NCBI GenBank assembly: GCA_029891385.1
Contig: CM057228.1
Span: forward strand, 59,589,783 to 59,653,782
Direction of reading: 5' to 3'
DNA length: 64,000 nt
Source of the DNA: Erythroxylum novogranatense
Lineage: Eukaryota > Streptophyta > Magnoliopsida > Malpighiales > Erythroxylaceae
Part shown: positions 808 to 50,191 of the stretch, piece by piece
Layout of the letters: every line of letters begins with the position of its first letter
Position numbering within the stretch: the stretch's first letter is position 1
Translations under genes and position numbers: made by a program
The notes under the pieces: generated by a model
The model's database searches: none
What the model was told of the DNA's origin: nothing
What the model saw: the letters and a program-made list of their open reading frames with translations, nothing else

Positions 808-879
808 GCCTTTAAAAGTGACAGATGCATTTATAAAAGTGACATCTTCCTAAAATGCTTCACTTTCAATTCTATGCTC

Positions 880-3800: not shown

Positions 3801-4251
3801 ATTTGGCCACAATTCTCGATCAGTTGACTGTAGTAAGTTAAAAAAACAATTTTGCTTATGGGTTAGGTTCTCCTTCAACATTATAAATCGTTGACATGTA
3901 TGGATTTTCAGTTTCGTCCATATAATTTGTTGTAAACCCAATTTCCCCTTCATGCTCATTTAGGTTGACAGATGATTATGATTGATTAACCCCTTGAGGT
4001 GCAACAAATGCTAGGTTCCACATGTCGTGTCCACTAGAAATAATTGCGAACAAACCCTTTTCTTAGCAAATATCCATTAACTTCATCAATAGTAAGGAAG
4101 CATTTATGTTTTCACTTTTTACATGAACATCTGATCTTTAGCCCACCCATATATGCAGGTTGAGAACATACATAATGAATAAAAGCTTGAACTCTCTCAA
4201 CAAATTCAAGATTAATGAAACCATCAACGGTTAATCATCTACACATCCAAG
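880..4251 (-). pseudogene. TNP2-type CACTA transposase remnant
   Basis: The Transpos_assoc-like N-terminus can be read from about 4250 leftward (a degraded cysteine-rich stretch near 4140). The TNP2 (Transposase_21) core survives best at 3198-2749, including MCMKEAY, QTYDISLKQNF, ALMWTVNDFP and WFDNHRKFLP. The DUF4216-like domain is visible at 1283-900 (YFVNGYKYHT, GELMDYYGKI, YVPFPSLRR). Many stops and frameshifts separate the pieces. The end of the gene is fused by deletion to the start of the TnpA-like gene near 810-850. Confidence 0.75.
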
Positions 4252-5099
4252 ATCTATCCCAAAAACTCTTTTCTAGAAAAATGTTAATTTAAAATAGTGA
4301 ATCCATAGTTAGTATCATTCATGTTAGCAAAAGATTTCAAAACATCTAAGATAAGACATGTGAATCAAGATCACAAGCTCTCGTTGTGACTCCTACACTT
4401 CTCATATTTTTCCTCGAAAAGCCTCACAGTTACTAGGGATCACAAGTTATAGGATAAGGTTTATGGGTTGAGATCTAAAATATTTGTAAAGTTAAGATCG
4501 AACATATATGTTTGTAATCATATACGTTAGAAGATAACTAATGTTAAAAATCCTACATTAAATATATACTAGTGTCAAATATAATAAGTATTCATAAAAA
4601 TATGAATACTTATTTTAATAAATTGTTTTAACATATGCAATTTTAAAAAGATATGTGTAAAAATTTGCACATGAAAAGTAAAGAGATATTAATTCAATGA
4701 TAAATCGAAGTTTATAACACAATCAACTTTCATATCGTGCAGGACATTTCAATTAAAAATGCAAGAAGTTCATATGGGAAGTTCAAACTATAAACAAACA
4801 CCCAAATAAAGATAAGTTGAAAAAAACATAGTAAAAAACAAAATCATTAACCTCAACCGACACATAAAAGGATCTTCTAAAGTACGTGAAGGAAGATGAT
4901 GATGATCGACCTAGAATGAGAAATATAGTAACTGACACAAATGTCATTCACCATGTGAGGAAAATCATTGTTGACATCCATAGTTATAAGGATATGAACA
5001 TCATTTGAATACTTGCTAAAGCTTCTCTTCAATCTCCTTCAAAATATTAACGCTGCTAACAACTGAATTCTTACAACCAATTCCCAAAAATGTTCACAT

Positions 5100-20710: not shown

Positions 20711-21529
20711 AAACAGTCTTATAGGTTTTATAAAGCTAGATACTGTGAATCTCTTGTGTCATATTTAGCTCTTAGGAAGCCTCATGTAATTGTTCAGTCT
20801 CTAGCTATCTAGTTGTTACTCGTGGAAAAGTCGTTGTCTGCTATTATTTGGCTTTTCAGCTCAAGTTTATATGAACAGTTTTAGCTACTAAGGAGCTCTT
20901 TGTCTTCGTCACCATACAAGAGTGTAACTTTGGCAATTTCTCATCTATTAGTAGTCACTTATCGATTGTGTTTTTCACTATTATTATCTTAGTATTATGT
21001 ATTTAGGTATTTATTTAGTTTAATTTTAATAGCATTATTTGTTTATTTTATGTATTTCCTTATTTTAGTTTTCTCTCTATCAATGGTCCATTTAGACATG
21101 GTTTCTTTACTAATTAAGGATAAAGTTTTATACTACTAGATCTCTTGAGATATATCGGTTTTGAAAATTTATTATTATTATTAAAATTTTATTTTTTATA
21201 TATATATTTTTTAGATATAGATCCACCAAAAATAACCTAAAAGATGCGTAATAATAGACGTTTCGTACCTTATGCTTGTGCTTGTGCTTGTGCTTGATTT
21301 GAAGTAATTGTTGACTATGACAACAATGATGTTTTAAGGTCAAAGAAATTCAGAACTGGGGAGTGGCGCAACTTGTGGCAAACTTGAAATATATAGCCAA
21401 CATGTGCCCATTTTTCGTGTCGTTGGCAGCTCAATATAATAGGAGGCAGGTCTTTCTCAGCGAACCGATTGGAACTGTCTTAGTCCAACTTGTAACAGAG
21501 TCGGAGAGAGAGAGAGAGAGAGAGAGGAA
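20711..21529 (+). promoter_or_regulatory. Upstream region and 5' leader of the oxidase gene
   Basis: Only 0.8 kb separates the LINE remnant from the oxidase ATG. A (GA)n run at 21503-21527 directly precedes the start codon and would lie in the 5' leader; GA runs are common in plant leaders and core promoters. TATA-like runs lie at about 21198-21207 and 21391. The true start site cannot be chosen by eye. Confidence 0.4.
21503..21527 (+). repeat. (GA)n microsatellite in the 5' leader of the oxidase gene
   Basis: About twelve GA units end three bases before the ATG. Such runs are length-polymorphic and may bind plant GAGA-binding (BBR/BPC) factors; that role is inferred. Confidence 0.8.
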
Positions 21530-22765
21530 ATGGAGTATTCTTGTGGTGAGGAATTTGATGTAATAGTTGTGGGTGCAGGCATTATGGGCAGCTCCACCGC
21601 TTACCAATTGGCAAAAAGAGGCCAAAACACTCTCCTACTTGAACAGTTTGATTTTCTGCATCACTGTGGCTCATCTCACGGAGAATCCCGAACCTTACGT
21701 GCAACGTATCGCCAAGACTACTACGGTACTATGGTCCTAGAGTCCTCACAGCTCTGGGAGAAAGCCGAGAATGAAATTGGTTTCAAGGTCTATTTCAAGG
21801 GCCACCATTTCGATATGGGCCCAGTCGACGACAGGAGTCTCTCTGCCATTATCTCCAGCTGTGGCAAGAACTCCATTCCCTATCGTGTTCTCAACCACCG
21901 CGAAGTGGCTGAGCAATTTTCCGGAAGGATAGACATACCGGATAACTGGATCGGAGTGCGAACCGAGCTTGGTGGGATAATAAAGCCGACAAAAGCAGTG
22001 TCGATGTTTCAAACATTGGCAATTCAGAATGGTGCAGTTCTAAGAGACCACATGGAAGTGAAAAACATAGTCAAGGACAAGGACAAAGGAGGGATATGGG
22101 TGTTCACGGTCAACGGAGAAAAGTTTTGGGCTAAAAAATGTGTGGTGACCGCTGGGGCTTGGACGAGTAGATTAATTAAAAAGTTTAGTGGGATTGAACT
22201 GCCCATTGAACCCTTGGAGACCATGGTGTGTTACTGGAGAATCAAAGAAGGGAAGGAGAAGGAATTCACCCTTGGCGGTGGTTTTCCAACATTTGCCAGC
22301 TATGGTGAGCCACGTGTATACGGGACGCCAGCGTTTGAGTTTCCAGGGTTGATAAAGATCGCCGTGCATGGTGGCCAGCTGTGTGACCCAGATAATAGGC
22401 CGTGGGGTCCAGGAGTTTCATTGAGTTTGGTGAAGGAATGGATTGGGAGAACACTTATGGGTCAGGTTGATTGTGAAAGACCAGTTGCGACTCAATTGTG
22501 CATGTACTCTGTGACGCCGGACGAGGACTTTGTGATCGATTTTGTGGGTGGTGAATTTGGGAAGGATGTAGTGGTCGGCGGTGGGTTTTCAGGTCATGGG
22601 TTCAAGATGGGTCCAGTGGTTGGAAGAATATTGGCTGACCTGGCACTTGAAGGAGAAGCGAAGGGGGTTGAGCTCAAGCACTTTGGGATACGGAGGTTTG
22701 AAGATAGCCCGGGAGGGAACGTCAAGGATTTTGGTGATGAGCTCGGTAATCTGAAATTAAACTAG
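21530..22765 (+). CDS. SOX: Sarcosine/L-pipecolate oxidase, intronless
   Basis: A 411-residue FAD-dependent amine oxidase of the monomeric sarcosine oxidase family, close to Arabidopsis At2g24580 in length and wording. The family oxidises sarcosine to glycine, formaldehyde and H2O2. The plant enzyme is also known to act on L-pipecolate in lysine catabolism and is peroxisomal. Visible are the dinucleotide-binding GAGIMG (15-20) with the acidic Glu38, the SSHGESR motif (48-54) and Lys276 in LIKIAVHGG, which matches the O2-activating lysine. Also visible are Cys324 in QLCMYS, the likely covalent flavin site, and the C-terminal GGGFSGHGFKMGP (350-362). The start has a purine at -3 and G at +4. 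The frame is uninterrupted. The C-terminus (LKLN) is not a standard SKL-type peroxisomal signal, which is odd for this enzyme. This is the only clearly intact host gene in the window. Confidence 0.95.
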   Translation: MEYSCGEEFDVIVVGAGIMGSSTAYQLAKRGQNTLLLEQFDFLHHCGSSHGESRTLRATYRQDYYGTMVLESSQLWEKAENEIGFKVYFKGHHFDMGPVDDRSLSAIISSCGKNSIPYRVLNHREVAEQFSGRIDIPDNWIGVRTELGGIIKPTKAVSMFQTLAIQNGAVLRDHMEVKNIVKDKDKGGIWVFTVNGEKFWAKKCVVTAGAWTSRLIKKFSGIELPIEPLETMVCYWRIKEGKEKEFTLGGGFPTFASYGEPRVYGTPAFEFPGLIKIAVHGGQLCDPDNRPWGPGVSLSLVKEWIGRTLMGQVDCERPVATQLCMYSVTPDEDFVIDFVGGEFGKDVVVGGGFSGHGFKMGPVVGRILADLALEGEAKGVELKHFGIRRFEDSPGGNVKDFGDELGNLKLN

Positions 22766-22829: not shown

Positions 22830-24575
22830 AAATGATGCTGTTTGAATTGGTTTTGCAATCTAAGCAAAATTTGTTTTGTAAACCAAAAACTGTTAGGAAC
22901 CCCCAGCCCCAGGATAACTAATAAACCATCAATGTAGGAAACCGGAAGCAGGGCTCGCCAATATTGGCTGTGAAGCCTAAAAACTGATGAATTAGTATTT
23001 ATCCAATTTTAGTTCCAATCATCACCAAATCACATACAATTATGTTACATTACCCTTTGAGGTGAGGTCTTAAATTCACACAAACAAATGCATAATGTGG
23101 TGCCCAACAAACAGAATGTATACAAAAGCAACTATAAGATTTCAACAACACTCATCACATGTTTATTTAATATATGTCCCAAACTTTTTCAAAAACTATC
23201 GATTTAACAAAATTCCATTCAACTCAATTTGGGATTCTCCATTGAAATTAGAATTTTTATCCTACAGACGTTCTTATAACATCAAGTGACACAGATAATA
23301 TGCAAAAACAAAAAATTAATTAACCTAAATAGCTCTAAGTGACATATACCACCAACATTATTTGTATGAAAAGTACCTACGAACCCATTCTTGTCATAAA
23401 ATTCAGTTGTATTGTAAAGAGATCTCTCACAATATTGTCAAAATCTAGCTTGAATTCTATTTATTTCAGCTTTTATTTCTCTCGTTAATATCTTTTGTTT
23501 TTTCTTTTTTCTGTGAAAAATGATGCCTAAATCAAAAATTATTTTTTCAAACAAAGAATCATAGACAACGACAAGACGATGAGAATAGTTCAGCTAGCTG
23601 ATATCATTTTCACGTGTCTTCGTAAGAGTTATTGAAAATTCTCGTAAATTTTCCTAATGAATACAATTTGATATCTTATCAAAGCTTATAATCGAAATAC
23701 TAAATAGTGAATGGTGGTGACACAAACTAAACTTGCAACATTCTTTCACATTTTTTTTTTTTTAAAATCTGAGTTCGACGTCGACTCCTATGGTAATGAT
23801 ATGAATTGCATAAAATTCTCTTATCCTCTTTAATAATCTCAACCCAATATTTATATCAAAAGTTACCGAATATGATAAACTATTATGTTGTTTAACCAAA
23901 ATTTTTCTTCTTTCTTAAGTGTTATCAGCATAACTAATCAATCGTACACCATCTAAGAATTTGGTATCACCCTCCAACTCAATCAAAGAACATTAGAAGT
24001 ACCCCTAACGTTTAAAATTCTATTAAATCATAAATATCACAAACTTATGGAGTCTCACATTCTCTCCCCCTTAACGTAATTTTTATCCTAAAACTTAACC
24101 AACTAAAATTTCCAAAGGATGTTACCTGATAGTCTAAATATCAGTCACTTATCTTGTCCTCTTCGACATTTATAAGAGAATAGAGCGTGATTTTAAAATC
24201 AAATCTTACAAGATAAACTAAATCATAATAATGGCCCATTTATTCCACCCCACTCGTCTCACCTTATGATAGTATCATATTCGCGACAACCATTTCAATC
24301 GGGCTGAAGAAAACCACAAGCTAAAAAATTGATTAGTAATTTTTCTATAAAGCAAAATCTCTAATAGTACACTGTTAGACTGGGATGACCAGAGCGGAGA
24401 ATGGTGATGTAAGTAAAATACACATATACTTTACTATATTTTATATTTAAAAAACCTTGGTAACTGAGAAAATATTGCCTTATGAATGAATTTTGTTAAG
24501 AATTTAGTTGTGTAAGCAAAATTAGTAATAAATCTTAATATTAGCAAAAACATAGTCTTGATCATAACTATTTGC
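22830..24575. other. Intergenic, AT-rich, no gene recognised
   Basis: No recognisable coding sequence. A CT/CCCCC-rich stretch near 24060-24072 may be LTR-derived, but no element ends were found. Confidence 0.45.
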
Positions 24576-25130
24576 CACTACAAGAAAATCGTCATATAGC
24601 GATGGAAATATACCGACGGACCATATAGAGTCGGTATATTGCGACGGAATAACAAATCCGTCGGTTAAAGGAAGGTTATTTGCGACGGTCCCGAAATCCG
24701 TTGCCAAAGATAGAGGGAAAGTTTGGCGGGGACTTTTAGCGACGGGAAACTGCCGATGGAGATAATTCCGTCTGTAAATAGGGACGAAATAATAGTTTCG
24801 GTCGGTGATCCTCTCGGGTAGAATTAGTTCCTCGACGATAAAAAAGTCGTCGCTATATTAAAGAAGGAATTTTCCGACGGTCAGCAAATCCATTGCCAAG
24901 GGTGGAGGGAAAATTACCCTGCAACGGAAATATGCCGATGAAAAATATTCTGTCTGTAAACAGGGACGGAATTAAAATTCGGTCGGAACAATTGGATGGA
25001 GGGAATTTCACCGACGGAATAATTCCGTCGGTATATTTCAAAACGGCGTCGGTATATTAGGTTAACTAGCTATTTCATCGACGGTTTATTTTAATTATAG
25101 CGACGGATAATTTCCGTCGTTAAAAAAGAA
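24576..25130 (+). repeat. Left terminal and subterminal repeat region of CACTA
   Basis: After the terminal CACTACAAGAAAA, the motif CGACGG or its complement CCGTCG recurs many times in both orientations, for example in ACCGACGGA, TCCGTCGGT and GCGACGG. In En/Spm elements such motifs are TnpA binding sites; that role is inferred here. Confidence 0.85.
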
Positions 25131-27122
25131 TTAAATCCCTGCGCAACCGTCTTCCTTCTCTCCTTCCCCGACTTATCTCCTCCTCTTTCTCTCTTCTCCT
25201 CCGGTGACGTTGGGCGATTCTCCTTCTTTTTCAGTCTTCTCCGGCGACGTTGCGACGTTCTCCCTCCCTCTTCTCCGGCGACGTGCTTCTCCCTCTCTTC
25301 TCTGGACAAACCAAAGTTAAGGATGAGATTTGTGGGTTGCGGTGGATTTTGTATATTTTGAACTGATTTAATTCATATGATTTGTGGTTTTAGTTTTGAT
25401 TTGTGTTGTGTGATTGTTGTGGATGTATTGAATGGAAATAATTTTAAGATTTGTGTGTAGATAGGGTTGAGATGGTTTTGACCTTAAGGTGTTTGATGAA
25501 ATGCGTTAACTGGATTACATATGCGTTAACCTGGATTACTGATTTAATTCATACTAGTATTGTAGTATGGAATTACATATGTTAGGCAAGTATTTGCTAT
25601 CCAAATTTAAATATGTTAGGAATTAAATATTTTATTAACCTCGATTAAATATTATATTCACTGGATTAAATATAATATTCATCAATCAATATGTTAGGCA
25701 AGTATTTGCTATCCAAATTTGATTTTTACATTTATGAAATAAAGTTTTAAATTGTAAATTGTGAGTTATTATAAATAGAAAATAGACTCCCAATTATTAT
25801 AAATTGTGGTAATTGAACCAAAAGAAATTGTATATTGTAGATGCAATTTTAGTTGTACTCCTCAATTTAAAATCCAACTAACTTTGTTATGAACAATCTA
25901 TAAGGTTTAAATTAATATTCATATTGAGGACCAAATAGACCCAAAATTAAATAGACATATAATGAAAATGAAGTGCAACCAAAATGTAGTGTTAATTAAT
26001 TATATGAGAAAACTATATGACTAATTTTAATACTTTTCATTAATTAGTATTTAATTTCTTTATATCATTAAATTTTAAAATATATTTCTATTTACCATAT
26101 ATATATATATATAATTCTCATATTCTAATTACTTAAAATAAATTAATAAATATGTAAAACATATATAAAAGAAAAGTTTACACACAGACACACACGAGTA
26201 ACACGACTCTTCTTGTGAGAATAAGCAGTCATTTTCATATATTTTCCCCTTTAGTTATGATTTGTATAACACGTCATGAAAAAACAAAACGTCTTGTATG
26301 TGTCAAACATTTGGTTTTGTTTTTCATTCTTAATATTGTTAATTGATTATTGTGATAAAAGTAGAAAATATTTTTATATTTCTTATTTAATTAAAATTTT
26401 AAATATTGATACTTAATCAATCTTTATTTAAAATATGGAAAAGTGTAAATTAATTATTGTTTTTAATCATACAATATTAATCTTCTTATTTTTGTTTAAT
26501 AGTTTATTAAATTTATCAATTAATGATTTTCCTTATTATAATAGAAAGATATAACATTGTTGTGTCTTAGATGTTGTATTTAAAGGATAAACTTAAAGAA
26601 AGAATCAAGTACAATTGAAGAGTGTAAATTAAAGGCAATTCAAATCAAGTAGACGAAGATCATAAAATTATAAAATAATTCAATATATAACAATCATTTT
26701 ATAATCTTATATTAGCCATTTCAATAAATTTGAGTTCAATCATTGCATGAGAAATGCTACGACGCCTCAATATGCTAAGACACAAGTTTATTTTGTTTGT
26801 TGTAGGAACCGTATTGTCCCAGCTTTTATACTTTCGAGGAAGCGTTAAGATAAGCCTACGTGTATTGAAATGATCGACAACTATACTTTTTCTTTAATCG
26901 TGGTTACTTTAAGCATATATTTGTTAATATTAGTTGACGTTATCAGAACATTTTGTATGGTTGTGAATTGCTTTGAGATTATTAATGTTTAATTCTTGAT
27001 AAGTAACATGATATCGACATACCTTGTTATATGTGTCATATATACATGAATTATCTTGACAATTGATTTACTTGTTAAAATTAATGTGATCTCAATTATG
27101 AATTTGTCGGGATAGATATTGG
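25131..27122 (+). other. 5' leader and probable leader intron of the CACTA transposase gene
   Basis: 25140-25310 is C/T- and GC-rich, unlike its surroundings, and holds three copies of CTCCGGYGACGT (about 25199, 25239 and 25273). It is probably the promoter/5' UTR. It is followed by 1.8 kb of AT-rich, stop-filled sequence that looks like an intron or spacer before the first transposase codons. The exact splice sites were not identified. Confidence 0.45.
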
Positions 27123-30100
27123 ATGTATAGACGATTATCCCCTGATGGCTTTATTAATCCTGAATTCGTGCATGGAGTTGATAGTTTTATTCATTATGCA
27201 TGCTCTCAACGTGCATATATGGATGGACAAAAGATCAGATGTCCATGTAGCAAGTGCAAGCACAAATGTTTTCTTACTCTTGATGAAGTTAAGTTGCATT
27301 TGCTGCGAAAAGGGTTTGTGCCTAATTATTTTGAGTGGACACAACATGGCGAACCGTTAATTTGTAGCACCTCAAGGGGGAATGAACCACAAATGTATGT
27401 CAACGTAAATGAGTATGAAGGGGAGGTTGAAAGTAGAGGGAATTTTGTTCATGGAACAGAAAACGCGTACAGACAAATGGTATTTGATGGGGTCGGTTGT
27501 ACCTTTGAGACAAATACGGTAAATGTTGAAGAAGAACCAAATGCAGAAGCACGGAAATTTTTTGACTTACTTCAAGCTGCTGACCGAGAATTGTGGCCCG
27601 GTTGTCAGAAAATGATGCAATTGTCTTCAATTGCGCGAATTTTGAACGTAAAGAGTGAAGGACACATATCGGATCATAGCTTTGATAACATTCTGGAGTG
27701 GTATACGGAATCACTACCCGCTGATCATTCAATGGTTGACAGTTTTTACAATATGAAGAAACTGATTCGGAGTCTTGGGTTGCCAGTGAAAAAAATTGAT
27801 TACTGTCGGTTGGGATGTATGTTGTACTGGGGAGATGATGTGAACTTAGATGAGTGCAAATTTTGTGATCAATCGAGGTTTAAGCCACGAAAGCGTGCAA
27901 TGAAACAGAAATTAGTTCCATGAAAGCGGATGTATTATTTCCCGCTAACTCCGAGACTGCAGAGACTTTATGCATCTGATGTGACTGCATGTCATATGAG
28001 ATGGCATGCTGAACACGATCAGGAAGATGGAGTAATGATGCGTCATCCATCAGATGCACTGGCATGGAAGCATTTCAATGACACCCATCAGCACTTTGCA
28101 GTTGAAAGTCGGAATGTGCGGTTGGGATTGTCGACTGATGGATTCCAACCTTTGGTCAATCCGGCAGCAATATTCATCTTGGCGGTGATAATTACTCCTT
28201 ATAATTTGCCTCCGTGGATGTGTATGAAAGAGGCTTACATGTTTCTTCGGTTATTGTGCCAGACCAACAAATCCCAAGCAAAAATAGATGTTTACTTACA
28301 ACCCCTGATATTAGAATTGCAAGATCTATGGAAACTGGTGTGCAAACATATGATGTATCTTTGAAACAGAATTTTGTCATGCGAGCAGCTTTAATGTGGA
28401 CGATAAGTGACTTCCCGGCTTTGGCCATGTTATCTGGTTGGAGCACAGCTGGGAAGTTGGCTTGCCCTCATTGCGGTAATGATTCAGATGCGTTTTATCT
28501 TCCATCCGGTGGCAAAATTAGTTGGTTTGACAATCACAGAAAATTCCTTCCTCCTGATCATCCGTTTAGGCGCAATAAATATAAGTTCATGAAAAATAGG
28601 ACAGTCAACAAACCAGCTCCACCTCTGAAATGTGGTTTTGAGATTTTGCAAGAGATTGAGGCATTGGGCTTGCTTAAAGTAACTGAATTTGAAGCCGATG
28701 AAGTTAATCGAACCATCAGCCAGAACTTTGGTTGGCGAAAATGAAGCATATTTTGGGATTTACCATATTGGAAAACAAATATGGTACGACATAATCTGGA
28801 CGTGATGCATATTGAGAAAAACATGTTTGACAACTTGTTCAATGCGATCATGAACATTGAAGGGAAGACAAAAGACAATGCCAAATCCAGAGCCGATTTG
28901 GAACTGCTCTGTAGAAGACATGAGTTACATAAAGATGTTCGTACCGGTAAATATAAAGATGTTCGTACCGGTAAATATCCGAAAGCATGTTACACTTTGG
29001 ACAAGCAACAGAAGGAGCGTTTGTGTGAATGGTTGAAAGGACTCAAGTTTCCTGATGGTTATGTTTCAAACCTGTCTAGGTGTGTAGATATGAGAAAGTA
29101 CAAATTATTTGGGATGAAAAGTCATGATTGTCATGTTTTTATGCAAAGGCTAATTCCAATTGCCTTTCGCGAGTTGCTACCTTCTAAGGTATGGGAACCA
29201 TTAACGGAGTTGAGCTTGTTTTTCAAAAGCTTAACATCATCTGAAATCAATTTAGATGAAATGGAAAAACTAGAGAATGAAATTGCAGTTATTTTGTGCA
29301 AGTTAGAAGGGATTTTTCCTTCAAGCTTATTTGAATGCATGGAGCATCTATCGGTGCATTTACCATACGAAGCAAAACTTGCCGGTCCAGTCCAATATCG
29401 ATGGATGTATCCATTTGAGAGGTAACGCCTGTACTATCATATCGTTACTCATTTGTACATCTTGTGTGTACCGAACCTTGTAATAACCATATGCTTTATG
29501 ATAGGTATTTACATCATCTAAAAAAAATGTCAAAAACAAAGCTAGAGTTGAGGGCTCCATATGTAATGCTTATTTAGTTGAGGAAGCTAGTACGTTTTGT
29601 GGACATTATTTTGAGCCTCATGTACGTACAAGGGCGAAACAAGTTCCTCGTAACGATGATGGGGGAGGAACAAGTGGTGCGGATGGGAACTTGTCAATTT
29701 TTACATATCCAGGACGGACATCTGGACGTGCAGCAAGACGAATGCTAACAGAGGAGGAAATTGATGCTGCACATGGGTACATTTTATTGAACTATCGGAG
29801 GTTCTTCCATTTAAATGCGCTGTTACAACTGGTATGGTCAATTGCAGGTATTATTGTGTTGAACGTTTCTGATTGGTGTCATGTCATATGCAGCTTATAT
29901 GAGGCATTGTTGCACGAGGTAATGCCTGGTATCACACAGGAAGACATGAATAACGAAGTTGGAAAACAATTCCCTCGATGGTTCGCACGATATGTAAGTT
30001 GTAACTTTAAACTATTCCTATTGTTACCCACCATGCATGTTAACATGTTTCGATGACATTGTACCCTTTCCTTTGCTACTTCCTGTTACATAGGTTGAGG

Positions 30101-30807
30101 AAAATCCAATACATAACAAGTTCATTTCTGATCTTGCGAAGGGACCTCTGCGAACTGTTAACTCATATCCGGTGTATTTCGTGAATGGATATAAATACCA
30201 TACAGAGTCGCATGGACATACCATGTCAAGTATGAATAGTGGGGTTTCGATACAGGGAGAATTGATGGACTATTATGGGAAAATAATTGAAATACTTGAA
30301 GTTGAGTACCTGCGTTGCCGGTTAAGCGTACGCGTGATATTTAAATGTGAGTGGTATGACCCGACACCAAACGTTGGAACAAAAGTGCATAACCGCTACA
30401 ATGTCGTTGAAATCAACTTCCGTAGACGGTTGAGACAATTTGAACCATTCATCTTGGCTATGCAAGCAAGACAAGTGTGTTATGTCCCTTTTCCAAGCTT
30501 ACGACGTGATAAGGCGGATTGGTTGGCGGTGTGCAAAGTTAAACCTAGGGGAGTGTTTGAATCCCATACAAACGTAGAGGAGAGAAATGACAGTGAAGCG
30601 TTTCAAGAAGACGTGGCTTCTATTCATGATACAATAACGTGTGACGACACAGAACCTTTGCACGATCCTTCTAACGCTTATGTTGATATTTCATCTGCAG
30701 AGTCCGACGAGGGTAACAATGGATCTGAACAAGAGGAAGAGTTTGATTCTTATTCTTCCGACGAGGAAGATGATTGTAATTTACATTTAAGTTCTGATAG
30801 CAATTAA
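27123..30807 (+). pseudogene. TNP2-type CACTA transposase (TNPD-like), broken by two stops and a frameshift
   Basis: Domains in order: Transpos_assoc N-terminus (27123-27350, MYRRLSPDGF and a CPCSKC motif), TNP2/Transposase_21 core (27540-28900), DUF4218-like region (about 28980-29425) and DUF4216-like region (30160-30540, YFVNGYKYHT, YVPFPSLRR). The C-terminal tail is acidic. A TGA at 27921-27923 falls between LVP and KRMYYFPL, and a second TGA at 28742-28744 between WRK and SIFWDLPYW; both look like CGA-to-TGA changes. A one-base loss near 28330 shifts the frame between LQDLWK and TGVQTYDV. Likely introns are at about 29424-29503 (GT after FER) and about 29994-30093. The first Met used here is preceded in frame by DRYW, so the original start codon may lie upstream or be lost. 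In the family this protein catalyses cut-and-paste transposition in the nucleus. Confidence 0.88.
28931..28978 (+). repeat. 24-bp perfect tandem duplication inside the transposase
   Basis: 28931-28954 and 28955-28978 are identical and encode KDVRTGKY twice, in frame. It lies between the TNP2 core and the DUF4218-like part, where the family normally has one copy of this spacer. Confidence 0.9.
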
Positions 30808-30881
30808 TATATCTTTGTAATAGACTATTTACTGTACCAAATACAGTATTCCTTTTAATAATTGGAATTCTTATTCAAGGG

Positions 30882-31498
30882 ATGTCGATGTGGCGAATGG
30901 TTCCCGACGGTAATAATTCTTTCCGTTGGGAGGAATGTGGAACATTTGTCCCATCTCAGGGAATAACCATTGCAGGAAACAGTGTTGTGGAAAGCACTCC
31001 AATTCGTTTGCCATCCATGACCGATCTTCTACTTGAAGGTGTTTGCTATGATTATTACGTCTGTGTTCTTATTCTGTACATCTTATGTCCTTATGTTAAG
31101 TGCCCATAACATAATAGTAATTTGATGGATTTAACTTCATGTTCCTCAAAGTGTCCTGTATTCTCAACGAAGAAATAAGTGTCGATAGAGGCCAGAGCTA
31201 TGACACTACGACATATGATCGAACTGACAAATCAGTTGTTGTTCCCTCTTGTAGTAGTTCATCCGGACAATTCGTCCTCTGTACCAAGAGCGGCGAAACA
31301 TTTAATATTTCCTCACGAAGTATGGCTATAGCTAAAACGTTATTGACAGAAAGTGTCCAAAGGCGTTCACCTGGTGGGAGAAGTCTAACTGTTTCCCGAG
31401 CTTCGTTTGAACGTGCCAGGACGCTGCTCGGAAATCCAGAACTGGGTGACTCATTTACTTATACGGACTCTCATGTCACATGGAATCCGACGGAATAA
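30882..31498 (+). CDS. Captured BRCA2 fragment: plant BRCA2 N-terminus, intron and two BRC-like repeats
   Basis: Exon 1 (30882-31038) begins MSMWRMVPDG, continues with SFRWEECG and ends with RLPSMTDLLLEG, the pattern of the plant BRCA2 N-terminus (MSTWQ...FRWEV...LPSMADLLLQG in Arabidopsis). A 113-base intron (31039-31151) starts GTGTTTG and ends CTCAAAG. Splicing keeps the frame (phase 1) into exon 2 (31152-31498), for a product of 167 residues ending in WNPTE and a TAA stop. Exon 2 carries FVLCTKSGETFNISSRSMA followed by IAKTLLTE, a BRC-type repeat. It then has GGRSLTVS and RARTLLGNPELG, matching the Arabidopsis BRC segment with GGKSLSVS and RARNLLGDPELG. Host BRCA2 loads RAD51 in homologous recombination. 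The RAD51-contacting FxxA is FVLC in the first repeat and lacks F and A in the second. The fragment lies 75 bases after the transposase stop and 235 before the TnpA-like gene, in the same orientation. Expression is unknown. Confidence 0.85.
31039..31151 (+). other. Retained BRCA2-type intron within the captured fragment
   Basis: GT at 31039, AG at 31150-31151, AT-rich throughout, 113 bases. The split falls within the codon after LLLE, at the point corresponding to LLLQG in plant BRCA2. Retention of an intron points to capture from genomic DNA rather than from a spliced RNA. Confidence 0.75.
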
Positions 31499-31733
31499 TT
31501 TACTCATGCATTACATAATTCAACAAAGTTGAAAAGATGTTTGTTGTTGTATATGTTTCAAACTGGTTAACATGGTCATAATTATATAATTATGGACGTT
31601 GATTTGTTGTTGTTAACTTGTATGTTAACTTTCAATGACATTGCCTTATATGTAAATCACTTCATTAAACGATTGCTTTTAAGCTTGTTATATTTGTACA
31701 GAATTCGATAAATTTTCTATTTCATTCATTAAT

Positions 31734-33573
31734 ATGGGACCTAAGAGACCATGTGAGGTTATGCGGCCGAGGTTTAGAGGGATGTTTGGCGGGCAGCCGT
31801 GTGAAGGTGGATCGTCACGGTCTGGGACTCGCACTGACTCACCTCCTCCTCCTACACATCCTCCCGTTGCAGATGAGCCATCACCTGCTGCTACTAATGC
31901 TACACCATCCCCTACGCCAACTCATTTATCATCCAATACCACAATAGGGGATGGGGGACATGCCCAACAACCTGGATCTGTAGGAGATGATGGGCGAAAG
32001 TATATCACTTACATCAATAACCAGTAAGTAATATGATAGGATTACGCACTGTTTCTAGCCTTTCTATTTTCGGTCTATTTGTACACTACACTGACTTCTT
32101 GTTTTAGGTTCGTACCATCTGGAATGGTTTTCAGGCAGATGACCTCCACTTTTAAGGAAAGGATTGAACCCGATGGATATACGTGGAAGAATATCACCGC
32201 AAAGAACGTAAACAATTATATTTTCATGAGTTCGAGGTACAATAATTATTTCTGTTATTTATTTAATATATATATATATATAGTGTCATGATTAATATAT
32301 ATATAGTTTGACGTTAACTAACATTTTGTTTTGTTCTTTAATCAGAAAGCATTTTTCTGGGACGCTACTTTGGATGGGAGCATTTACAAATTCTGGGAGA
32401 GGCGTGCTCGTACACGTTATCGCGACTTCATTAGCGCGATAAACAAGGCTGGTTCACGACCCCGCTTTATTTCGGAAGATATTTGGAGTCATTGGCTAGC
32501 ATATTGGGCATCACCTGCAGCAATGTCCATCTCAAGACGTAACTCGGCCAACATACGTGGTGACATAGGTCAACAAAGTCTTCCCGTACATACGGGTGGC
32601 TCAATAACTCACCAAGAGCATGCAGACAAACTTGTAAGTATCTACAGTTTACACTAATTTTTTCGATAGTTAGCTTCGTTGTATTATGCATAATGATAAT
32701 GGTCTACCTATCTGCTGCCACTTATATATGACAGTGTTGACTTATTTTCATTGTCCAACTAGAGGCGAATATCAAACAACTTCACATCTAACGTTTTAGT
32801 CTTTCTCATGTAGGAGAAGTCATTGGGAACGAAGCTTACCCCCCTTCAGTTATTTCTGCATACTCACACGAAGAAGCATGACGGTGTAACCTTCATCAAC
32901 AACCGCTGTCGAGAGCTGAATGTATGTCCACTTATTGCTTTTTTTTATTTCTACATACTGCTCCTTTCCTTCGTCTTTATGTTAACTTCACATACCTGAT
33001 AGGACCAATTACAACAAACACTAGAGCGGCAATCGCAGGAGGAACAACCTATAGACGTGTCTCAGACGTATTTTGAGGCTGTGGGTGGTAGGGATCGCCG
33101 TGGCAGAATATTTGGTCTAGGTTCGTATGGGAACACATGTTATTCCCAATCTTCCATGTCCAAGACAAAGAAGATCCACTAGGCCATCGAACAACAATGA
33201 AGTCATCGAGCTCTGGGCAACAGTACAAACATTAATGGACAAGATTGCTCATTTGGAAGAGAGGCAGACAGAGCGGGAGGAACAACGACTGAGGGAGCAG
33301 ACAGAGTGGGAGGAACAACGGCTGAGGGAGCAGACAGAGCGGGAGGAACAACAGATGAGGGAGCAGGAGCAACGAATCAGGGACCAGATGGAGCTACGAA
33401 TGAGAGAGCAGATGGCGAAGATGAGAGAAGAGATTATGCAGATGGCTCAGCTGCAACCACCGTCCGAACAATCGAAGGCAAGTTCTCCAAAGGACCACCA
33501 ACGACCACCACAACTTTATATTTTCATACTCATGATTTTAAGGTACAATCAAAACAATTTTTGTTTACTTTGA
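31734..33573 (+). CDS. TnpA-like gene (Transposase_24 family) of the CACTA element
   Basis: Several exons can be assembled from GT-AG borders. Exon 1 starts MGPKRPCEVMRPRF, has a Pro/Ser/Thr-rich stretch and ends GRKYITYINN near 32023. Exon 2 spans about 32108-32236 (FVPSGMVFRQM, PDGYTWKNI). Exon 3 spans about 32346-32633 (KAFFWDATLDG, RARTRYRDFI, PRFISEDIWSHWLAYW). Exon 4 is about 32815-32920 (TKLTPLQLFLHTHTKK). Exon 5 starts near 33003 and runs into a highly charged coiled coil at 33217-33450 (EREEQRLREQ repeats). The frame changes between CYSQSSMSK and the coiled coil near 33150-33200, so either another small intron or a frameshift is present. In En/Spm the equivalent protein binds subterminal repeats and aids transposition; this is inferred from family and position. 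Confidence 0.75.
33275..33366 (+). repeat. 33-bp tandem repeat in the TnpA coiled coil
   Basis: Nearly identical 33-base units encode variants of EEQRLREQTER; two full and one partial copy. They extend a glutamate/arginine coiled coil likely to mediate multimerisation. Confidence 0.75.
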
Positions 33574-33754
33574 TATGTTTTTATCCAATTGTATTCCAAT
33601 TGACATTGTTTAATATTATTTGATGTACTGGTTGATGTGTGGATTTCAAATAATGTACAACCAATTAATTGTCATTATACAAATCTTTGATGTACTGGTT
33701 GATGTGTGGATGGCCAATTAAATATGCACCCAATGGGGTTTCACCCCTTTTTTG

Positions 33755-34175
33755 TACCGACAGAATGAGACATTTCGTCGGTGAATATTTTCCGACGGAA
33801 TGAGACAAACCGTCGGAACCTAATCTGGACTAAATTTGGAGACGTCCGACATTCCGTCGTTAAAGATATAACTTACTTCGGAATATTTGCGACGGTTAAT
33901 CCGTTCCTAAAATATACCGACAGGAATATTCCGTCGGTGACGTGTGACATTCACCGACGTCATCTACCGTTGCAATTTGACAACAACGGATCATATTCCG
34001 TCGATTACCCGTTGAAAAAAAGCGATGGAATATTTCCATCGGGAAGCTATAACGACCGCAATTTTAATGACGCTTCCTTCATTCGTCGTGTTCCATCGGC
34101 AAATAAAATTGCCGACTGAACTATCAATTTCTCCGACGGAATATTCCGTCGGAGAAAGTCATTTTTCTTGTAGTG
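33755..34175 (+). repeat. Right subterminal and terminal repeat region of CACTA
   Basis: Many copies of CCGACGGA, TTCCGTCGG and related motifs in both orientations, ending in TTTTCTTGTAGTG. It mirrors the left end. Confidence 0.85.
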
Positions 34176-36880
34176 TGCTATCCTATATTCTTTTAGAAGA
34201 CCCAAGATTGAAACAAGATCATATATATAGGTGGATAAAGGTTATGTCATACAGAGCTGAAGAAATAGAAGAAAGCATGACAATGTTGGTTTGTGACTTA
34301 TAGTCAATCGGTTTAGTTGTGGTTTAGTGTCAATTATTTAAAGGAATTTCTTATCCTATACATATTTAGATCTATATGATAAATTCCATAGGATAATTTT
34401 ACATTGTAAATAAAATTATAATTATGATATTCATATTGCATCGATGTATTATCCCTAATTTGTTTCCAGTCCTTATTCTATTAAGACTGGATATTAATAA
34501 AACGTAAAAAGGCTAGCATATGTTATGTTTTTCCTATAAAAGAATTAGTCGATCTTGTAAACTAAAGTATGGAGATAATTATTGTGAGTGCTTGTTAGAG
34601 AACAAGTTCATTGAATAGACCCAATATGAGAAGTTCATTGGAACATTACTTATATGTTTATGTAAATTCTCGTTGTGATGATTGTATAAGTGATCTTTTG
34701 ACTTGAGGTATCTAAAGTTATCTTATATAGAAATTGCTATATTTTAATACTACTTATAACCTATTTAATCATGCGTCATTCAGTTAATAGTCATTCGATA
34801 TAACATGAACTAAATGGAAGTAGTAGACACATCAAGATATGATTCATCACCTTAAAGTAATTAGGGAGAATCTTTTGCTTTTCTTGATTAGTATTTATTC
34901 GAAAAATCATTGACCAAGGTCTGATACTTTTCAAATAGTTTACAATTATCATTAATTGAATCAATAGATAATGACAAAAACTAATATGATTGGACTCAAA
35001 GTAAAGTGACATTAATTTCATCCTTTATCTCTATTATAAAACATTGTATAATGAAATTATCGAATTAAGTTGGAAAATGCACAAAATATTAGTCTAATTC
35101 AAAATCACTTTGACATTCCTAAATATTTAGGTAGTCATGATTTGTTGCTAGATTCTAATCTTGATTTATAATTATAAATTGTTTAATTGGATAATTAAAG
35201 ATACATTAAAAGAATTTTAATTTATCTAATTCTAATTATTAATGAGAATCATAACTTATAATCATTCTCAATATATTTGGGAACCTAATACATCTCACAT
35301 AAAGAATGAGATGAAAAGAACAAAGATATTTTAATCAAGTCTTGATTAGACTTGATTGTAAAGTTTGAGAAACTTTGTCTAAACATGAGATATTTAATAA
35401 ATAAGAATCAATATGAGATATTCGATCTTATTTGGGCATAATTGATATTTAATTAGAATTATTTGTAATTTTAATTAAAGTTTCATTGAAATTAAAATTT
35501 AATTTCAATTAAATTACTAATGAAGCTAGTAGTTCTTACTTAACCCTCTCTGTAAGAGTTGCAAAGTTCTCTCAACCTATTCTGTCAATAACGTTAGAGG
35601 TTGAATACTTGTGCAGCTACGGTATTTGAGGTAAATCAATTTTAGAAACAGTTTGAGAGATAGGAGAAGATAAGGATCAAGCTTTGAAATAAGTACGAAT
35701 TATAATTCATGCTTTATTATAATTTATTTGTTAATCATTTTATATAATTAAAGTGATCTTGGTTTTTGAGAAACTAAACTACAAAAAGTTACATAATTGT
35801 TCTGCTACTGTTGGGATCAAATCTTGTTCCAATTTCCCAACACAAAGATAAAGTGGATCTGCACTTGTTTCTTTTTTAAATATTAAAGTTTAAAATAGTA
35901 TGAAACATAGCTAAATACAAGAGCATGTCAGTGCTTAAGTCCATTTGTGGCATAGATATAGTGAAGAACATAATGAAGATGATAGGAGTGTAGGTGCCTG
36001 TATAACTCCTCTAAGGGATCAACAATCTATTCACTTTTGTATTACTACCAAATGGTAGGTAAACTTACCTTAGATTGTAAGTAATAGTACAATAAATGAG
36101 AAAAAAAGACAACTATTGCCACAAATGGTAGGGTTGTGACTAATAAGAGGCTCTTAGGAAACTAATAGTACATTTCAATATAAATAGAGGAGGGCAGATT
36201 ATGAATTATAGATTATATCTTGATGATAACTTTAAGGATTCAAAAGTGGGGTGCTTATGACATCCAACATAGGAGGTGGTATTAAATCTTCTAAGATGGA
36301 AGTCCTTATAATCTTATCAAAACTAACACTAATCAATTTTCTAGATAGTTATATTTTTCCTATATATTTCTCTTAAGCCTAAAATGAAATTATTACTGGA
36401 CCAATCTAAATTGTGACAAAAGATATACATATAAATCATCCTCTTATGTTTCATAGGACTACCCATACTAAGAAAAGGCCCAAATTTTAGGTGAAGGAAA
36501 ATATAACAAGTGCTATAATAAAATTGAAAGTAGAAATAAAATAAGAAGGAAATACATCCACCCTTTTCTACATTATAAAAAAGCCATAAAGAAAGTGTTG
36601 GTGGATATAGATGTTTGGTGTAGCAGATCGAGATACACTTGTGAAAATTCCTCTTGGCCTTGAATAGGATTGTATAGAGTTCATATTCTTATCATGGTAA
36701 AGCAAAAAGATTGTAAAGGCTTCTTTTAGTCCATGAAAGAAGATATTATATGGAGATTTCATCTTCATCTATTGAAGGAAGAAGATAGTGAATTCCAAGT
36801 GGAGTTTGGATAGTAAACATAGTTCAAAGGTTATGTTGTTGAAACACTATAAATTAATTTAGGCTTTTTTCTTACCCTTT
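34176..36880. other. AT-rich region with LTR debris, no gene recognised
   Basis: 35450-35840 looks like the 3' part of a decayed LTR. It shares CCCTCTCT, a run like TTGCAAAGTTCTCTCAA and a GTGCAGCTACGG-type stretch with 17540-17640, and it ends TTTCCCAACA at about 35841. The remaining sequence shows no coding potential that could be supported. Confidence 0.45.
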
Positions 36881-41823: not shown

Positions 41824-43516
41824 ATGGCACACAACAACCTAGCGGAAGAAGGTAACACTAATAACTGTCCTCCCTTGTTTAATGGCTCTAACTATTCATC
41901 ATGGAAAAATCCTATGAAGTATCATATTATAAGCGCGGGAGTTGAATACTAGAAGATCATTATCTTCGAACTTCAAGCCCCTCTAAAAGAAAATGGTGAG
42001 TTGAAAACAGAGCTGGAGTATGATGATAACGATTGGAGGCAAGCGTACATCAACTCCAAAGCTATGAAGCTGATATATTATGCATTAACGGTTGAGGAAA
42101 GAAACTGGGTAAATTCTTGCACCACTGTTAAGGAAATGTGGGAGAGACTTTGAGTTACTCATGAAGGGACAAATCAAGTCAGGGAGACAAAAATCAACAT
42201 GCTTCTTCACGACTACGAGATGTTCATCATGAAGGAAGGTGAGTCAATTTCTACAATGCTTGACCATTTTGCAGAAATCATAAGTGGATAGGCAACCTGG
42301 GAAAGCACATGACGGATAGCGAGAAAGTGAAGAAGATTCTTCGTTCACTGCCGAAGGAATGGGATTCTCAAGTCACCGCAATTATGGAGTCAAAGGATCT
42401 CAACCATCTGGAATTCAACGCTTTGGTGGGATCACTCATCAACTATGAGATTATTCTCAAATCCAGAGGAGGTAGAGGTAAGCCTAAAAAATCTATTGCT
42501 TTTAAAGCTAACACTTCTTTTGTTGATGAAAGTGATGAGGAATTAGATGAAGACGAGGAAGACGAAGAAATTGCTATGTACGCTAGAAATTTAAGGAAGT
42601 TCAAGGGACTTCTCAAAAACGAAGGAAAGAATTAAATGGCAAAAAACAGGTTGAAAGGAAGAGGTTTGGCGAGGAAAGAAAATCAAAAGGCTATGACGAA
42701 AAGAAAGGCAACGAAGAATGTTGGAGATGTGGAAAACGGGGACATCTCGCAAGAGAATGCAAAAGCTCATCATCAACATCAAACTTTCAGAAAAATGATA
42801 AATACGAAAAAGGTAAAAGGAAAACTAGCCTGGTGGCAACTTGGAGTGATGAAGATGATACATATCAAAGTGATGATGAAAACAACCTGGCACTTATGGC
42901 AAAAAGTGATGATGAAAATGAGGTAAATTTCAATGACCAAGATTTAAGAGATTCTTTTGATGCTTTGCAAGCTGATTTTGAAGAAGCCATTGAGATTAAC
43001 AAAAAATTAAGAAAGAAAATACGTGAATTGGTTGCTGAAAATAGTGCCTTACATGAAACGATTGATGATTTAGATAGTCCGAAAGAAGATCATTCTGCAT
43101 GTCTTATTGAAAAAGAAAATCTTATTTATGAGCTTAATAGACTTAGAAAAGAATTTTCATATGTGGTTGAAAAATTCGCAAATGGAAACGAACAGTTTGA
43201 AAAATTGCTATCGCTACAAAGATATTCCATTTCTAAACATGGATTAGGTTATGATCCTTTTGATAGAGATTGCTCTTTAATTTCCAAATTTACTAAGGAT
43301 GGAAAAATCGCTCAATGTGCTAGATGTTTGAAAGATGGTCATATAGAAATTGCCTGCAAGAGTATTAGAAGATGTGTTAAGGTTAAGAAAATTTGGGTTA
43401 TTAAAGGCACAACACCACCAAATGTGGTTTATATGGCTAACCAAAATGGACCCAAAATGGCTTGGGTACTTATAAGAAGAAAGAACGTTGATATTGTAGG
43501 TACAAGCAAGGGATGA
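41824..43516 (+). pseudogene. gag of the SIRE-type element, with stops and a frameshift
   Basis: Begins ATG GCA CAC at 41824. The capsid-like region includes PLFNGSNYSSWK and RSLPKEWDSQVTAI. Stops fall at about 41951, 42152 and 42288, and a frame change near 42630 separates capsid from the zinc knuckle. The knuckle (42719-42760) reads CWRCGKRGHLAREC, a CCHC box. A long acidic and coiled-coil region follows (DDENNLALM, EAIEINKKLRKKIREL), typical of SIRE gag. A second cysteine pair (CARCLKDGH) lies near 43315. The protein would form the particle that packages element RNA. Confidence 0.85.
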
Positions 43517-46500
43517 AAGGCCGTCAAGCACTTGGTACATCGATAGCGGATGTTCGAGACACATGAGTGGGGACAAGAACCTTTTTGTGGAAATCAAACC
43601 AAAAAATCAAGGTTATGTCACCTTCGGAGACAACAATAAAGGTAAGGTCATTGGAATTGGTAAAGTGGGTAAGGAACCTTTGCCAACCATTGACAATGTT
43701 TTGCTAGTTGATGGGTTGAAACATAACCTGCTAAGTGTGTCTCAACTTTGTGATATGAATGATATTGTATCATTTGAATCATCACATTGCCTAGTTAAGA
43801 AGGATGATCATGTTGCCTTTATTGGTTTGAGACATGGGAACACATACATTGTTGATTTGCATGATGATAGTTCATTCAATGAAAAATGCCTGGTGACACT
43901 AGAAGAAAATGCATTTTATGGCATAAAAATTAGGACATGCACCATTGCCTTTAATTTCTAAGCTCTCAAAGAATGACATTGTAAGAGGTTTGCCTAAGAT
44001 TAAATTTGTTAAAGATCATTTGTGTGAGTCCTGTTTGAAAGGCAAACATGTTAGAGAATCTTTCAAACCAAAGAAAGAAATTTGCACATCTAGAATTCTT
44101 GAACTTGTGCATATGGATTTGATTGGACCTTCTAGGCATGCTAGTCTTAGTGGAAAATTATATGTACTTGTGATTGTAGATGATTTCTCTAGATTTACTT
44201 GGGTAAGATTTCTTGCAAATAAAAATGATGCCGTTAATGAATTTACCAAGTGGTGTAGATTGGTTCAAAATGAGAAAAATTTGTCTATCATTGCAATTAG
44301 AATCGATCATGGAGGAGAATTCGAATGTGAACCTTTCGAAAATCTTTGTGACAAATACGAAATGGAACATAATTTCTTGACACCAAGGACTCCGCAACAA
44401 AATGGTGTAGTAGAAAAGAAAAATCGTTCACTTGAAGAAATGAGCAGGACTATGCTAAATGAGTACAATCTTCCTAAATCATTTTGGGCAGAGGCAGTCA
44501 ACACCGCTTGCTACGTCATCACCCGGGTGCACTTATTAAGAGACAAAAATAAGACACCTTACGAGCTATGGAAAGGTAAGAAACCTAATATCTCTTATTT
44601 TCATCCTTTTGGTTGTAAAGTTTTTATTCATAATAATGGAAAGAGCAATTTAGGAAAATTCTACTCTAAATCCGATATTGGTGTGTTTATTGGTTATTCT
44701 CAAACTAGTAAGGCTTTTAGAGTTTATAATAATAGGACTAAATGTGTTGAAGAAAGTATTCATGTCAAATTTGATGAAATAATTTCACCCCGAGAAAGGT
44801 TTGTTTTGATGATGATGCGGGAAGTTCGGGTAATAAAGTTGAAGAAATTGAATCCAAGATTGAGGAATTGAAGCTAGACGAAGAAAACATGTACCCGACA
44901 TTAAATCATGGGCAAAAGCAAAGAATCATCCTATGGAGCAAGTCATTGGAGATTTAAATGTTGGTGTAAGAACTAGGAGAAATATCTATGAGAATATGAG
45001 TAATTCAGCTTTCATTTCGTTGGTAGAACCCAAGAATATAGAAGAAGCACTTAAAGATGAAAACTGGCTTTTAGCTATGCAAGAGGAGCTTAATCAGTTC
45101 AAGCGAAATGATGTATGGGATTTGGTAGCTCCACCAAAGGACAAAACCATCATTGGAGTCAAATGGGTAAATCGGATAAAGTATGATGAGAATGGTGAAG
45201 CGGTTAAAAATAAATCAAGGTTAGTGGCTCAAGGATTTTATCAAGAAGAAGGTCTTGATTACAATGAGACATATGCTCCTTTGGCTCGTTTGGAGGCAAT
45301 TAGGCTACTATGTGCATTTGCGTCTCATAAAAAGGATCAAATTAAATCAAATGGACGTCAAGAGCGCATTTCTAAATGGGTATATTCAAGAGGAAGTCTA
45401 TGTCAAACAACCACCAGGATTTGAAGATCATGAGCATCCGGATTATGTCTACAAACTCAAGAAGGCACTTTATGGACTAAAGCAAGCACCTAGAGCATGG
45501 TATGAGAGGTTAAGTACTTTTCTAACTCAACATGGATATGTTCGTGGTAAGATAGATAATACTTTGTTTATTAAACATGTTGGTAATGATATGCTTATTT
45601 GTCAAATTTATGTTGATGACATTGTGTTTGGTGCCACTAATGAATTTTTGTGCAAAGAATTTAGTGATTTAATGCAAGGTGAGTTTGAAATGAGTATGAT
45701 GGGAGAACTCAAGTTCTTTCTTGGATTGCAAATCAAGCAACACAAAAATGGCATTTTCATCCACCAATCGAAGTATACCAAGGAACTTCTCAAGAAGTTT
45801 AAAATGGATGGATGCAAAGTGGCAGCAACACCAATGGTGACAAATCTGGTCTTGGAAAAACATGAAAATGAAGAAGACGTTGATCAAAAACTCTATAGAG
45901 GTATGATCGGCTCTCTTTTGTATTTAACTGCTTCTAGACCTGATATAATGTTTGCCATATGTCTTTGTGCTAGATTTCAATCTTGTCATAAGATTTCTCA
46001 TTTGAGTGCTTGTAAAAGAATTTTTAGATATTTGAGTAGAACTATTAGTCATGGTTTATGGTATCCTAGTTGTGATTCATTTGATTTGTATGCTTATAGT
46101 GATGCTGATCATGGTGGCTGTAAAGTTGATAGGAAAAGCACTAGTGGCTTGTGCCATTTCTTAGGATCATCTTTGATATCTTGGGCTAGTAAAAAGCAAG
46201 TTAGTGTAGCCATTTCCACTACTGAATCTGAATATGTAGCAACTGGGAGTGCTTGTGTCCAAGTTCTTTGGATTAAACATCAATTGCTTGATTATGGTGT
46301 TGTGGTTAAAAATATTCCTATTTATTGTGATAATACCAGTGCAATTTGTTTGAGTAAAAATCCTATATTGCATAGTAGAACAAAGCATATAGAAATTAGA
46401 CATCATTTTATCCGTGATCATTGTTTAAAAGGTGACATTTGCTTAAAGCATGTATCAACTAGTGATCAATTGGCTGACATTTTTACTAAACCTCTTAAGG

Positions 46501-46562
46501 AAGATGTGTTTGTGAACATTAAATTAAGATTAGGCATGTTTGATTTAAATTCATTTGGTTGA
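43517..46562 (+). pseudogene. pol of the SIRE-type element (PR-INT-RT-RNase H), frameshifted
   Basis: Protease: WYIDSGCSRHMSG at about 43533-43570. The GAG-pre-integrase region runs to 43950, where a frameshift breaks the LWH...GHA motif. The integrase (43945-44871) keeps the zinc-binding CESCLKGK and the catalytic Asp, Asp and Glu in HMDLIGP, RIDHGGEF and NGVVEKKNR. RT starts near 44990 (NIEEALKDENW). A frameshift near 45335 separates the first RT part from QMDVKSAFLNG. The YVDD catalytic motif is at about 45608-45619. RNase H includes YSDADHGGC, STTESEY and HIEIRHHFI and ends LADIFTKPL near 46492. The stop is at 46560-46562. Confidence 0.92.
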
Positions 46563-49864: not shown

Positions 49865-50191
49865 TATATCTATGTTTCTGATTTGATATCTCATATCCAT
49901 GAACAGTAAAACGTGATCATCAATCAAAACACAAACTAGTCTTAATTCATTATTATTCCACCAATAATGATCGAACAGGGACTGTCTAGAATAGTGTTAT
50001 AACGCTTATAGTTTTACTATCAAGTCACATATTTGATGACATAAGTCTAATACCATTCATAGAATGTAAATCACATTACATAAACGAAATACATGCATAA
50101 ATGAAAGGAATACCTCATAATATATATTAACAAGTCATAATGTTAATACATGAATCACAAAATTCCATTAGCCTAGGGCACATTACTAACA

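Follow-up and report, generated by a model that had tools for sequence, protein, structure and literature searches.

Does a stretch of BRCA2 inside a plant transposon belong to the element as a gene, or is it carried along as a fragment? The question is raised by the window, a stretch of 64,000 nucleotides from Erythroxylum novogranatense, where a 167-codon, two-exon ORF sits between TnpD and TnpA within a 9.6-kb CACTA element (Table 1).

The element and its additional reading frame

With CACTA terminal inverted repeats, a 3-bp target-site duplication and subterminal repeats, the window copy belongs to the CACTA (En/Spm) type. In the Pfam search the TnpD-like gene matched Transpos_assoc, Transposase_21 (E 9.7e-30), DUF4218 and DUF4216, and the TnpA-like gene matched Transposase_24 (E 1.9e-8). 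TnpD of this copy is interrupted by two stop codons in frame, whose last bases are 27923 and 28744, and by frame changes between about 28140 and 28350, so that the copy is not autonomous. An open single-exon gene for an FAD-dependent oxidoreductase (Pfam DAO), which we take to be sarcosine/pipecolate oxidase-like, is located 1.8 kb 5' of the element at 21443-22765 (plus strand). Retrotransposon ORFs were recognised by eye at 42264-46562 (Ty1-copia-like, plus strand) and at 50127-52457 (Ty3-gypsy-like, minus strand).

Table 1. Positions of the CACTA features in the window
Feature	Position	Strand	Basis or remark
Related CACTA copy 2, family B	6-4324	-	about 1.1 kb deleted; TnpD part 76% identical in nucleotides to that of the element
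Target-site duplication TGC	24573-24575; second copy 34176-34178		
CACTA element, 9600 bp	24576-34175	+	terminal repeats CACTACAAGAAAA / TTTTTCTTGTAGTG and target-site duplication
5' subterminal region	24576-25130		10 TTCCGTCGG-like motifs (at most 1 mismatch)
TnpD-like transposase gene	27102-30807	+	Pfam; broken in the window copy
ORF exon 1	30882-31038	+	residues 1-52 and first base of codon 53; MS.W..PDG..FRWE block, LPSMTDLLLE
ORF intron 1 (GT-AG)	31039-31151	+	phase 1; position of host BRCA2 intron 1
ORF exon 2, through stop codon	31152-31498	+	corresponds to exons 2 and 3 of subtype 2, fused
BRC3-derived segment, approximate limits	31253-31354	+	LCTK at the FxxA position; LLTE kept
BRC4-derived segment, approximate limits	31355-31456	+	RRSP at the FxxA position; GGRSLTVS..RARTLLGNPELG
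TnpA-like gene (Transposase_24), several exons, approximate limits	31734-33573	+	Pfam
3' subterminal region	33750-34175		13 TTCCGTCGG-like motifs (at most 1 mismatch)

Compared with the host BRCA2, the ORF consists of the N-terminal block, a part of BRC1, a fused BRC3-BRC4 and a tail that is absent from the host gene. The BRC numbers follow the Arabidopsis numbering. The ORF stops after the BRC4-derived segment, so that the OB-fold/DSS1-binding domain is absent, and Pfam gave no match on the ORF. The coordinates, the strand, the 31038/31152 splice junction and the 167-residue reading were all as the earlier note had described them. Its placement of the ORF between both transposition genes and inside the terminal repeats was borne out by the Pfam matches of the flanking TnpD and TnpA, the CACTA repeats at the ends and the 3-bp duplication.

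The reverse complement of exon 1 (30876-30962, minus strand) encodes an exon-1-like peptide (tblastn E 4e-4), which makes this part a rough palindrome. The palindrome was also found, weaker or similar, in both copies of family B described below (E 0.002 and 2e-4).

An origin of the ORF ends from subterminal motifs was considered as well. Three TTCCGTCGG-like motifs are present in the ORF region (at 30904, 30921 and 31487) and none in the rest of the element interior; more than one was found in none of 1201 other 617-bp segments, and three were reached in 2 of 3000 dinucleotide shuffles. The motif at the stop codon (31487) equals 25011-25024 over 14 nt. When the codons were shuffled synonymously, two motifs appeared in exon 1 in 28 of 5000 cases and at least one in exon 2 in 1250 of 5000, and the ORF tail at the stop codon has its homologue in the group-3 copy C3 (see below). 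On the grounds of the synonymous shuffles and the tail homology, this origin was rejected.

Descent from BRCA2 and spread within the CACTA lineage

The genome (1.30 Gb, 267 contigs) was searched with the PF00634 profile, which pointed to three places, one of them (C8) being the host BRCA2 gene. This gene (also found as L003, L010 and L011) has an exon 1 with MSTWQIVSDAGNEFRWE...LPSMTDLLLE, BRC repeats and an OB1-like ORF. The 415-aa BRC ORF of the host matched Pfam BRCA2 with 3.2e-19, three BRC stretches being recognised, and the ORF near it matched BRCA-2_OB1 with 7e-4, under the model cut-off. The transposon ORF is collinear with the host gene. The amino-acid identity is 46% for exon 1 (tblastn E 5e-10) and 36% for the BRC4 part at residues 79-158 (E 9e-7), and intron 1 agrees in codon position and phase. 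Since the host gene of the same genome matches collinearly and shares introns with the ORF, the comparison shows that the ORF originated from the first part of the host BRCA2 gene, taken up as genomic sequence with introns.

Neither the whole 167 residues nor a 69-residue piece matched PF00634, and 36-residue pieces reached at best 12.5 bits (E 0.1) against a cut-off of 20.3 bits. No homologue of the 167 residues was found in the protein set (33 candidates; 833 with an X-padded query), the PDB or the viral contigs. An Arabidopsis BRCA2 sequence was matched with E 6e-10, which serves as a lead only. The idea of the earlier note, a BRCA2 piece captured by a CACTA element, is supported by the resembling host gene in the same genome. 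The segments that it had read as BRC-type repeats are degenerate, without FxxA and below the Pfam cut-off, and the BRCA2 repeat model that it had proposed as a query gave no match to the whole ORF.

A 26-mer pattern of the ORF, present in 55 of 56 aligned copies, occurred 234 times in the genome when up to two mismatches were allowed; the reversed control occurred 0 times. The genome search with the 167 residues gave 2563 first-look candidates, 150 of which were scored, with 210 matches. The first 81 matches listed were near-full over exon 2, and 45 of them had no stop; of the 30 best matches to exon 2, 13 contained stops. Of the 30 best loci (L012 being the window copy), 29 have a TnpD piece upstream, 28 have a TnpA piece downstream and 27 have both. 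The ORF is fully intact in half (15) of the 30 copies with the best scores. In a set of 50 copies (the window copy and L013-L061), 25 were intact at the start, the splice sites, the frame and the stop; this fraction is biased upward because 17 of the 20 copies added from ranks 31-63 had no stop in the genome search. Judged from these copies, the BRCA2-derived ORF is an inherited, high-copy third gene of the CACTA lineage, beyond a one-off capture. Other elements with the same insert, which the earlier note had suggested looking for, are numerous, as the 26-mer count and the flanked copies indicate. The alternative it had named, a standard CACTA ORF unrelated to BRCA2, was correct in its first half and wrong in its second.

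Six copies (L062-L067), termed subtype 2, contain an extra stretch between the BRC1-derived and the BRC3-derived parts. When joined, the three exons of L062 encode an intact protein of 184 residues; intron 2 of this copy begins with GTATGC and has phase 1 as in the host. L065 follows the same three-exon model with one stop, and in the other four the motif anchors were matched incompletely. By this comparison, the subtype of the window is the product of an in-frame deletion that took out intron 2 and adjacent coding sequence.

The window also contains a copy of a second, related family. The deletion in this copy 2 runs from the end of TnpD across the site of the BRCA2-derived gene into the start of TnpA. 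When the TnpD of copy 2 was searched for, 1311 candidates were obtained; the 40 that were scored matched at 85-87%, copy 2 itself excepted. In two (L076 and L077) of the 40 copies listed, the 1.4 kb that follow the TnpD match were checked. The BRCA2-derived gene is present at this place in each of them, with parts of its three exons, and is decayed: L076 has lost the start codon and has one stop, and L077 has three stops. The start of TnpA was found beyond the gene in L077; the L076 stretch was without a TnpA match. Copy 2 was ruled out as an empty site, as its deletion removes both flanks and L076 and L077 have the gene. The synonymous divergence between families A and B was 0.47 for the ORF (window and L077) and 0.56 for TnpD (window and copy 2), values close enough to fit a joint descent since before the family split. 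Because both family-B copies that were read carry the gene, its capture would predate the split, and most simply the gene was acquired before the two CACTA families separated.

Group 3 (C6 and C3; loci L005, L008 and L068-L075; 468 candidates, 40 scored) is an old high-copy repeat with a truncated, decayed BRCA2 and the same BRC3-BRC4 fusion. The tail ..SFT..T.S..TWNP is present in the ORF and C3 and partly in C6, and is missing from the aligned host region. Eight group-3 loci and C3 had at least one stop each within the parts seen (L075 partial). In the flanks of about 1.5 kb of the eight loci no TnpD or TnpA pieces were detected, apart from a weak reverse-strand match at L070 (E 0.008). Close to C3, TnpD pieces of another CACTA are present on the opposite strand, and C3 lies near another CACTA end; the C6 copy adjoins GCTACGTTTT-type motifs. 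Either the CACTA lineage captured a pre-truncated BRCA2 repeat, or group 3 derives from the CACTA lineage.

Selective constraint and possible function

Pairwise dN/dS was calculated by the Nei-Gojobori method, with shifted frames (given in brackets) as comparison. Between family A (56 copies) and family B (2 copies) dN/dS was 0.55 (0.86 and 0.82), and pN/pS of the window and L077 was 0.60 with a bootstrap range of 0.43-0.86. Within subtype 1 it was 0.62 for all pairs (0.83 and 0.70) and 0.53 for intact against intact copies (0.86 and 0.80), and between subtypes 1 and 2 it was 0.65 (0.99 and 0.84). The six subtype-2 copies among themselves gave 0.81 (0.96 and 0.65), which is no clear difference. 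Exon 1 of the ORF showed 0.61 (0.90 and 0.76) and exon 2 0.55 (0.82 and 0.67), where pN in exon 2 is lowered since the copies were selected by ORF similarity. For the C-terminal part of TnpD we obtained 0.43 (0.80 and 0.92). A TnpA exon, included for comparison with a gene of the element, gave 0.69 (0.55 and 0.68) and hence no constraint by this test; a genuine element gene can therefore appear unconstrained here. The LPSM..DLLL block (11 codons, among the best host matches) had within-family pN/pS values of 2.4 and 1.3, and the BRC-derived parts 0.50-0.78. Between the window copy and the host BRCA2, 99 codons gave a dN/dS of 0.24 (shifted 1.7-1.8), dS being close to saturation; pN was 0.31 and pS 0.67, and the bootstrap of pN/pS was 0.33-0.61. 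Constraint acting on the host gene accounts for part of this low dN/dS. Taken together, the values suggest moderate constraint on the BRCA2-derived gene, weaker than that on TnpD, with shifted frames that are themselves mostly below 1.

BRC repeats contain the modules FxxA and phi-phi-x-[E/D], as described in passages of PMC12412785. FxxA was absent from every motif type listed, which covered 55 of 56 copies for the BRC3-derived and 54 of 56 for the BRC4-derived segment. At the BRC3-derived position most copies have LCTK, and L065, L066 and family B have FHTK. The BRC4-derived position is mostly xxSP in family A, and family B is without FxxA before GG/EG. The BRC3-derived segment has kept phi-phi-x-E (LL[RTIG]E or LFRE) in 56 of 56 copies; for the BRC4-derived segment, the motif types listed, which cover 54 of 56 copies, are without phi-phi-x-[E/D].

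For cut-and-paste transposons, copy gain is commonly ascribed to the way in which the host repairs the excision gap. We lean towards the reading that a third CACTA gene from the host BRCA2, present in two families, is expressed as an accessory protein that benefits the element via repair. The ORF may yield a protein of 167-184 residues useful to the element, whose N-terminal block and remaining phi-phi-x-E module would engage the homologous-repair machinery at excision gaps. Repair could then be biased to refilling of the donor site with a gain in copies, or the ends could be protected. That this accessory factor acts on excision-gap repair is a guess. We consider it rather unlikely that a transposon-domesticated mini-BRCA2 without FxxA steers excision-gap repair to donor refilling and has been maintained by selection for this effect from before the family split onwards.

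The BRCA2 fragment might instead be a passive passenger, captured a single time by an active ancestor of the element and then copied along irrespective of its coding capacity. Capture of gene fragments by CACTA elements is common according to passages in PMC8978399 and PMC8195511, and the stops in the best exon-2 matches, the 25 of 50 broken copies and some equivocal constraint tests are in line with it. The frame of the window, however, is intact despite the large divergence from the host (part of which arose on the host branch), whereas under neutral drift the probability of no stop would be 0.02 with 0.2 substitutions per site and 0.004 with 0.3. The dN/dS between the families also argues against the passenger, as does the contrast to group 3 with its stop in every locus read, and we regard this explanation as possible but doubtful. 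A decoy that binds RAD51/DMC1 and inhibits homologous recombination of the host, which the earlier note had mentioned as speculation, could draw on the BRC3- and BRC4-derived segments and the conserved phi-phi-x-E. Human BRC4 peptide in excess can disassemble RAD51 filaments, as cited in PMC12412785. In the same source, moss BRC3 does not bind RAD51, likely from loss of the Gly beside FxxA, and binding was partly regained when the Gly was restored. Because both BRC-derived segments, family-B copies included, lost FxxA, the main RAD51 anchor, the idea is weakened and a simple decoy is very unlikely. An epigenetic camouflage, in which silencing of the element would be costly since small RNAs would also strike the host BRCA2, has been proposed for captured fragments in CACTA in PMC8978399. 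The longest exact match to the first 1.1 kb of the host BRCA2 was 9 nt for the ORF region of the window and 18 nt for the 56 copies. As siRNAs have 21-24 nt and these matches fall below that length, camouflage is highly improbable.

Comparison with known systems

Captured pieces in CACTA elements are usually seen as short-lived passengers; here a piece of a recombination gene became a fixed, moderately constrained third gene in hundreds of copies. A transposon gene derived from BRCA2, a possible theft of a repair tool, would allow a direct test of whether transposons manipulate repair choice. With plant BRCA2, represented by the host gene and by Arabidopsis BRCA2A/B, the ORF has the N-terminal block, LPSM.DLLL, BRC remnants and the positions and phases of introns in common. 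It differs in that the OB-fold part is missing, BRC3 and BRC4 are fused, FxxA is lost and the tail is foreign to the host.

Gene capture by CACTA elements is already well known (PMC8978399, PMC8195511, PMC13317346 and PMC1947982). Among the open-licence PMC papers listed by the literature searches, no earlier report of a BRCA2-derived CACTA gene was found; the passages of PMC8483783 in which both search words occur use them in separate contexts. Pack-CACTA, Tgm-Express1 and Tpn1 are likewise CACTA elements with host gene fragments gained at the DNA level, and are described (PMC8195511, PMC13317346 and PMC1947982) as mostly non-autonomous, with unrelated sequences between common ends. Whereas Pack-CACTA is defined by having no transposase genes, TnpD and TnpA remain here, as their pieces on both sides of the ORF in 27 of the 30 top-ranking copies indicate, and a single fragment is an established gene of both families, under moderate constraint. 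BRCA2 of moss (PpBRCA2) and Drosophila is also short and, in the account of PMC12412785, has BRC repeats and an N-terminal region but lacks a canonical DBD. These are host genes with a conserved FxxA, whereas the ORF described here is transposon-borne and without FxxA. The CACTA elements of Chenopodium have likewise gained coding additions, as extra domains or captured fragments, in the passages of PMC8978399 that describe them. Their captured fragments lie 5' of ORF1, whereas in Erythroxylum a piece of a DNA-repair gene is placed between TnpD and TnpA.
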